Source: Secundilactobacillus malefermentans DSM 5705 = KCTC 3548 (GTDB lineage: Bacteria; Bacillota; Bacilli; Lactobacillales; Lactobacillaceae). From it: a stretch of DNA of 33,796 nucleotides. Shown here in pieces: positions 1 through 16,867 of the stretch. The stretch's first letter is position 1; every line of letters begins with the position of its first letter. A program made the translations under genes and the position numbers. The DNA is taken from contig NZ_AZGJ01000020.1 in the NCBI RefSeq assembly GCF_001436395.1, positions 1 to 33,796 of the forward strand. The letters are read 5' to 3'. The notes beneath the pieces are model-generated. The model was not told where the DNA came from, made no database searches, and worked only from the letters and a program-made list of their open reading frames with translations.

Positions 1-300
1 CTAACTTGATTATAAAACGCGCGCAAAACATTCGTTTTGTCCCAGCCCCGTTGCTATTTCCGAATATTCTTGCTTAGTCGGGTTCCAAAAAGCTACTTTC
101 TCTGCCTAGCTACGATCAACAAACAATCCCAAGTGCAGGATTATTCGTTAATCTAGGCTGCGACTTGGACTGTCGCACTTCGACATAGTCCAATCGACAT
201 CGTAGCGGAGCGTAGTATGCTCAAAAGCAAACCGCCTTTTGTCTCACCCTCGTTTTATTGAGCTTTAAAGGCTCAATTACTAGGTGGGTTACATTAAATA
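1..300. other. Structured intergenic element, possibly a dispersed repeat or ncRNA
   Basis: No credible ORF is present in this stretch. Two near-identical boxes, TTTTGTCCCAGCCCC (35-49) and TTTTGTCTCACCCTC (237-251), lie in direct orientation at its two ends. Between them are several inverted repeats. The strongest pairs 165-175 with 181-193 (11 bp with a 2-nt bulge). GCTACGAT (109-116) can pair with ATCGTAGC (199-206), and GCCTAG (104-109) with CTAGGC (153-158); these two pairings cross, so they are alternatives or a pseudoknot. A further hairpin, CAAAAC/GTTTTG, lies at 24-39 and ATTGAG/CTCAAT at about 257-277. From general memory, GGCTGGGACAAAA-type boxes recur between genes in lactobacilli, but I cannot verify that here. 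The coding strand, if it is an RNA, is unknown. Confidence 0.4.
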
Positions 301-16744: not shown

Positions 16745-16756
16745 TGAACCATAAAC

Positions 16757-16847
16757 AACACGAGGGGTGTCCATTAGTGGGCTGAGATGTTGCTGCACGC
16801 AACGATCCCTTTGAACCTGTAAGTTCACACTTGCGTAGGAACGTGTT
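16757..16847 (+). ncRNA. TPP riboswitch (THI element)
   Basis: The conserved thi-box landmarks are all present and in order: GGGGTG near 16765, GGCTGAGA at about 16779, CCCTTTGAACCTG near 16807, and GCGTAGGAA near 16833. The closing stem P1 pairs AACACG (16757-16762) with CGTGTT (16842-16847). A terminator hairpin follows before thiM, so bound thiamine pyrophosphate should cause early termination. Confidence 0.97.
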
Positions 16848-16867
16848 ATCAGTCGGTAAAGAAGTGA

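Follow-up and report, generated by a model that had tools for sequence, protein, structure and literature searches.

A hairpin-forming repeat of the Lactobacillales that probably moves by replacing terminator hairpins behind stop codons, with a truncated copy in Secundilactobacillus malefermentans

Background

The enterococcal repeat EFAR is said, in an abstract of 2007, to be modular, mostly 170 bp long, and inserted into stem-loops whose stem remnants are left at its ends. Small hairpin-forming intergenic repeats are also present in Streptococcus pneumoniae, a member of the same order, in the form of RUP and of BOX, the latter of which is modular. Efa-1 of Enterococcus faecalis is described as an intergenic repeat of 163 bp with 65 copies, consisting of a pair of adjacent stem-loops (PMC2267715), and EFAR is listed as the enterococcal MITE (PMC3733652). 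The ends of RUP tie it to an IS630-type transposase, and the NEMIS or Correia elements of Neisseria fall into classes of about 107 and 155 bp which differ by an internal stretch of 50 bp, and whose RNA hairpins have been proposed as substrates of RNase III (both in PMC2229807). We presume EFAR and Efa-1 to be one and the same repeat.

The locus considered here lies at the left end of the window, by which we mean the whole stretch of 33,796 nucleotides that was analysed, a complete contig (G000:C66) of Secundilactobacillus malefermentans. A first-pass annotation of its positions 1 to 300 described a gene-free structured element framed by two similar boxes, and suggested, among other possibilities, a dispersed intergenic repeat family or a pseudoknotted regulatory RNA. 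The reading that we prefer, to which we assign a probability of roughly 0.72, is that the element is a non-autonomous mobile repeat of the Lactobacillales which replaces the terminator hairpin behind a stop codon and brings its own, and that the copy in the window gained a module and was afterwards cut by an IS30-type element.

Results

The copy in the window

No open reading frame of 60 or more amino acids overlaps positions 1-300, in line with the gene-free description, and the first one starts at 358. The two boxes, located at 35-52 and 237-254, share their orientation and 83% of their sequence across 18 nt, with a start-to-start distance of 202 nt; inverted repeats are present as well, including the 8-bp pair 109-116/199-206. 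A search of the organism's own genome with window 1-300 returned 38 matches, the window itself among them. One of these copies, L002, is 94% identical to the window over 24-256, and in several others the sequence corresponding to 24-159 is joined directly to that corresponding to 216-256, the 56 bases between them being absent. It follows from these back-to-back matches that the element in the window, which is on the minus strand, measures about 228 bp and that its module is optional. A structured element is thus present, with limits other than those first proposed: the unit extends over about 24-251, and the boxes, which do not frame an RNA, belong to the two ends of one minus-strand copy, where they form imperfect end repeats (5' GGTGAGACAAAA and 3' GCTGGGACAAAA), one of them inside the terminator palindrome.

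The copy at 24-251, which was delimited by own-genome matches and whose edges were set by comparison of copies, is truncated at its 3' (left) end. All of its parts are read on the minus strand. The consensus structure assigns to 75-251 a four-helix hairpin core, inside which the module is found in this copy, and to 114-153 the apical hairpin P4; fold and consensus together define the basal helix P1, with its 5' arm CAAAAGGC at 234-241 and its 3' arm, which is GCTTTTTG in the window copy, at 86-93. The optional hairpin module of 56 bp, located at about 160-215 by the back-to-back matches and found at the same place in L002 and L005, breaks the match of the covariance model R1, which covers 75-194. 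The core is followed by a linker at 53-74, recognized by copy comparison, and by the remains of a terminator hairpin at 24-52, the second arm of which has lost its outer part when compared with the intact palindrome of other copies. The upstream gene of the window copy encodes an acetyltransferase (358-786) and is divergent, so that this copy is not adjacent to a stop codon. The spacer that separates this gene from the element holds a short palindrome, ATTGAGCTTT/AAGGCTCAAT, at 257-277. Elsewhere in the window, a TPP riboswitch at 16753-16858 (plus strand) scores 67.8 bits, which exceeds its gathering score.

The minus strand of 24-256 folds at -76.8 kcal/mol, compared with -59.2 +/- 4.7 for shuffled sequences (z -3.8, 0 of 200), and so strong a fold speaks for a pseudoknotted regulatory RNA, or a riboswitch, that is confined to this locus. 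Comparing the copies goes most of the way to refuting that reading, which we consider hardly credible. One arm of the crossing pairing, 199-206, lies in the module, which is missing from most copies, so that a conserved crossing helix is not found; the consensus is a nested hairpin; many copies are present at other places; and no Rfam family reaches threshold over the element, either in the window at the gathering score or in 25 other loci at an E-value threshold, the matches that overlap it all being sub-threshold, such as Spd-sr07 with 30.2 of the required 55 bits.

In the truncated terminator, one arm of the palindrome ends after CAAAAC and is followed by window 1-23, which is probably the end of an insertion sequence, of a type that we take to be IS30, interrupting the palindrome. 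The same bases form the end of contig C98 (23 bases) and of contigs C79 and C72 (22 bases), with unrelated DNA following in each. The motif is present, with at most two mismatches, in 21 of 151 genomes of the family, and a similar transposase-like frame adjoins it in three of the five loci inspected (L305, L306 and L308), a piece of the L306 frame matching HTH_38 and HTH_23.

Architecture and variants of the family

A full copy of the element is about 185 nt long and joins a 119-nt four-helix hairpin core to a linker and a terminator hairpin. In L007, which is full, free of modules and read on the minus strand, AGGGTGAGACAAAAGG is followed by the long hairpin, the linker, the palindrome and a run of T, and the whole folds at -86.8 kcal/mol (z -11.1), compared with -69.0 for the opposite strand. 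Modules sit, as judged by eye, at internal loops: on the 5' side of the core in the window copy, L002 and L005, on the 3' side in L015, and near the base of the core in L021, L036 and three copies of genome G008 (L048, L056 and L058), where by eye they seem to be that hairpin in reversed orientation. Hairpins of the GACAAAAC..GTTTTGTC type also occur singly, and one of these, L041, carries a truncated core.

Several individual copies show further peculiarities. In L011, on contig C24 of the own genome, a perfect complement of the 5' arm has taken the place of the 3' arm of the inner helices, which removes a conserved internal loop. L012 and L013, also of the own genome, carry assembly N exactly where the terminator palindrome is expected, which implies that hairpins may be lost in assembly. 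L311, in genome G539, is a tandem array of about six units with a period of about 123, the beginning of which coincides with the stop codon of an apparent aminopeptidase C gene.

Distribution

With model R1, the own genome yields 24 copies whose E values are no higher than 4.5e-12, among them the one in the window, and a further copy at 9.5e-8, the weaker matches being mostly echoes on the opposite strand. Nucleotide search finds copies in two of the 15 genomes of the genus, the own genome included, and R1 finds the core in 14 of the 15. For the family as a whole, the genomes with a match number 176 of 397, and 19 of the 40 genera are represented. Across the order R1 matches 64 of 395 genomes, 37 of which belong to five other families (f2, f3, f5, f7 and f9), some of these order-level matches reaching only E near 1e-4, and the order-level search places the element in 25 genera. 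In the phylum-wide search, which covered 199 genomes, the own genome matched and none of the 198 others did. The suggestion of a dispersed intergenic repeat family is therefore borne out by the strong own-genome copies and by their relatives across the order, and no copy inspected shows homology to a protein gene, as a decayed coding sequence would.

When more candidates were scored in 15 genomes chosen from the 37 of the other families, up to 71 matches (G539) and 66 matches (G560) were obtained, counts that possibly include echoes, and the layout of the element was recognized by eye in 28 of 29 slices inspected from these genomes. The slice of L145 misses the element, and neither L145 nor L149 entered the model searches. 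Tandem arrays occur, for example in G539. A pattern built on the family consensus matched at least 120 stretches in genome contigs and none in viral contigs, and a pattern built on own-genome copies had no matches in genome contigs. The hosts among the matches listed include Lactiplantibacillus, Companilactobacillus, Pediococcus, Paucilactobacillus and Lapidilactobacillus. A blastn search of plasmids with four queries gave, for one query, a single plasmid of Latilactobacillus curvatus, in which the copy starts 10 nt past an annotated CDS, and nothing for the other three. In the text of the literature, four conserved 11-mers gave matches that are unrelated by title, and no paper describing the family outside E. 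faecalis was recognized from titles and the starts of abstracts.

Covariation and the constrained strand

Two alignments were used to evaluate the pairing. A1 is a MAFFT alignment of 16 copies which was not fitted to the model and serves as an independent check on A3, which comprises 122 matches at E 1e-8 or better from 97 chosen loci; another alignment, A2, was dropped because it included opposite-strand echoes. Changes on both sides are found in 11 of the 40 consensus pairs in A1. In A3, whose pair counts lean towards structure because it was fitted to the model, double compensating changes are found in 39 of 40 pairs, 95.4% of cells pair as compared with 36-43% when the pairing is slid, and the covariation score is 0.766 as compared with 0.081-0.115 slid and 0.185 shuffled. 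The compensating changes that the first-pass annotation had proposed to look for are thus very strong.

Cells with G-U exceed those with A-C by 65 to 1 in A1 and by 264 to 49 in A3, which indicates either that one strand, the terminator strand, is constrained, or that it has undergone asymmetric mutation, as expected of a strand that is transcribed. Some unpaired columns are nearly invariant (G 100%, A 99% and A 91%), and the loops GAGCAUAGCCUAG and CGUAGCUAAGCGGA are conserved within Lactobacillaceae. Since mean column identity over the whole order is 70% for unpaired and 68% for paired columns, loop conservation is limited to certain positions and to Lactobacillaceae, and does not extend to every loop base.

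Stems which drift fast and yet stay paired on one strand imply that a folded single strand, of RNA or DNA, is what is kept. A structure acting in DNA, whether a folded single-strand recombination site or a cruciform, would require no role for RNA; it would account for a conserved fold with freely changing stems, and for L011, in which an arm replaced by an exact complement of its partner resembles the product of hairpin-templated repair. The G-U bias, however, misfits a two-strand cruciform, although a one-strand DNA substrate could accommodate it, and we regard a purely DNA-level structure as very unlikely.

Position relative to genes and terminators

Of 117 copies found by pattern, 14 were not counted because they lie near an end or have no open reading frame, and the other 103 have readable flanks. 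The upstream frame is co-directional in 70 of these and antisense in 33, the window copy being of the antisense class. Among the 70 co-directional copies, 54 have a core that starts between -6 and +25 nt relative to the stop codon, a raw count which uses frames called by a simple script. A previous count, for which different limits were set, found 74 copies in sense and 38 in antisense among 112 intergenic ones, and two more inside open reading frames; of the 25 copies in the own genome, 13 begin no more than 16 nt from a sense stop codon. A strict scan of the 103 copies detected a terminator-like hairpin 3' of the core in 37 and 5' of it in five, leaving 66 that lack a 3' terminator by this measure.

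The host genes upstream look unrelated to each other. Among the matches listed, copies after the same gene are found in two or three species: L262, L215 and L209 have their loops and apical stem in common and quite different basal stems, in which both arms have changed together, and L265 and L267 occupy the same place in different species with few changes. Copies that follow the same gene in several species tell against movement having been recent in every case, and could mean that they are under host selection.

Filled and empty sites

Comparison of genomes with and without a copy provides direct information about insertion. The site 3' of the L091 gene holds the element in one of 21 Lactiplantibacillus genomes, as determined by pattern and by eye. 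The empty site in G275, which is 91% identical, consists of TAG followed by a plain terminator, GTAAAAAACG-TGCCACAGAA...TTCTGTGGCA-CGTTTTTTAC, and at the filled site GGAACG precedes the element and CGTTTTTGC follows it. At this clean site, most of the terminator hairpin has been replaced and its outer bases have been kept. The site 3' of the L095 gene is also filled in one of 21 genomes; among the 20 others, one (L346) leaves its contig soon after the stop codon, and the empty sites are mostly a terminator by eye. One clean site thus shows a copy set into a stem-loop of which stem remnants survive, and the second site is consistent with such an insertion. No target site duplication is evident at the clean site, no candidates for the long inverted end pairs of a related full-length transposon were found within the loci retrieved, and no mobilising enzyme came to light.

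These insertions bear on the possibility that the element is a 3' UTR component serving its host, in which the invariant bases would bind a protein or nuclease and set mRNA stability or 3'-end processing, and in which spread would be secondary. Such a role would be in keeping with pairing on one strand, with adjacency to stop codons and, among the matches listed, with copies that have kept their place behind one gene in two or three species as their stems changed. It is difficult to reconcile with two insertions that are each confined to one of 21 genomes, with an antisense upstream frame in nearly a third of the copies (33 of 103), and with upstream genes that look unrelated, and we consider it unlikely.

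Discussion

If the element is a mobile repeat, as we prefer to believe, then new copies would insert into the terminator hairpin behind a stop codon, or next to it, and would swap out most of the host hairpin and supply the element's terminator in its place. Because the element brings its own terminator, the upstream gene would stay terminated, and the cost to the host may be low because termination is restored. The replacement step draws on the comparison at the one clean site and on its consistency with the second, from which the general rule is extrapolated. Targeting of terminators would be the cause of the adjacency to stop codons, and the folded strand may be recognized by a trans-acting factor or by whatever copies the element. 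In the window copy, the extra hairpin module would have been gained before the cut by the IS30-type element. Several results count against the mobile-repeat reading: neither a mobilising enzyme nor, at the clean site, a target duplication was found, the upstream frame is antisense in 33 of the 103 copies, the strict scan detected no terminator in 66 of them, and some copies follow one gene in several species.

A further possibility, which we think quite improbable, is that the element is a SINE-like RNA parasite. Transcription of a host gene would continue through it as far as the element's terminator, so that it forms the 3' end of the mRNA; it would fold on that strand and, with RNA as the intermediate, be copied into the terminators of other genes. 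This would jointly explain the strand-specific pairing, the stop-codon adjacency and the 3' terminator, and, if true, it would mean that a parasite takes over the 3' ends of many genes.

The covariation signal of the family is very clear, and the mobile-repeat reading adds an insertion rule that can be tested, namely the swap of the terminator that follows a stop codon. It offers a way into the question of how gene ends tolerate mobile DNA, and a handle on the enzyme that moves such hairpins.

BOX, integron attC and TnpB guide RNA were provisionally set aside as identities for the element. The sequences of BOX and RUP probably differ from that of the element, and no link to an IS630-type transposase, such as RUP has, was found here. 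The NEMIS or Correia elements resemble it in having size classes that arise through an internal stretch, and differ in belonging to another lineage; the insertion site and terminator hairpin of the present element are absent from their description in the excerpt of PMC2229807.

The closest known kind appears to be EFAR/Efa-1, to which the fit is close when the repeats are compared by description. With Efa-1, the likeness lies in the length (about 185 nt in L007), in the two adjacent hairpins, here core and terminator, and in a mostly intergenic position. EFAR, as it has been described, is matched in the variation of length by modules (in the window copy, L002, L005, L015, L021, L036 and the three G008 copies) and in insertion into a stem-loop with remnants, which is seen here at one clean site. 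What distinguishes the present element from EFAR/Efa-1 is its presence in 25 genera of the order, its strong covariation and its adjacency to stop codons. The comparison suggests that the E. faecalis type of repeat forms a single branch within a family that spans the order and is absent from Rfam at threshold.
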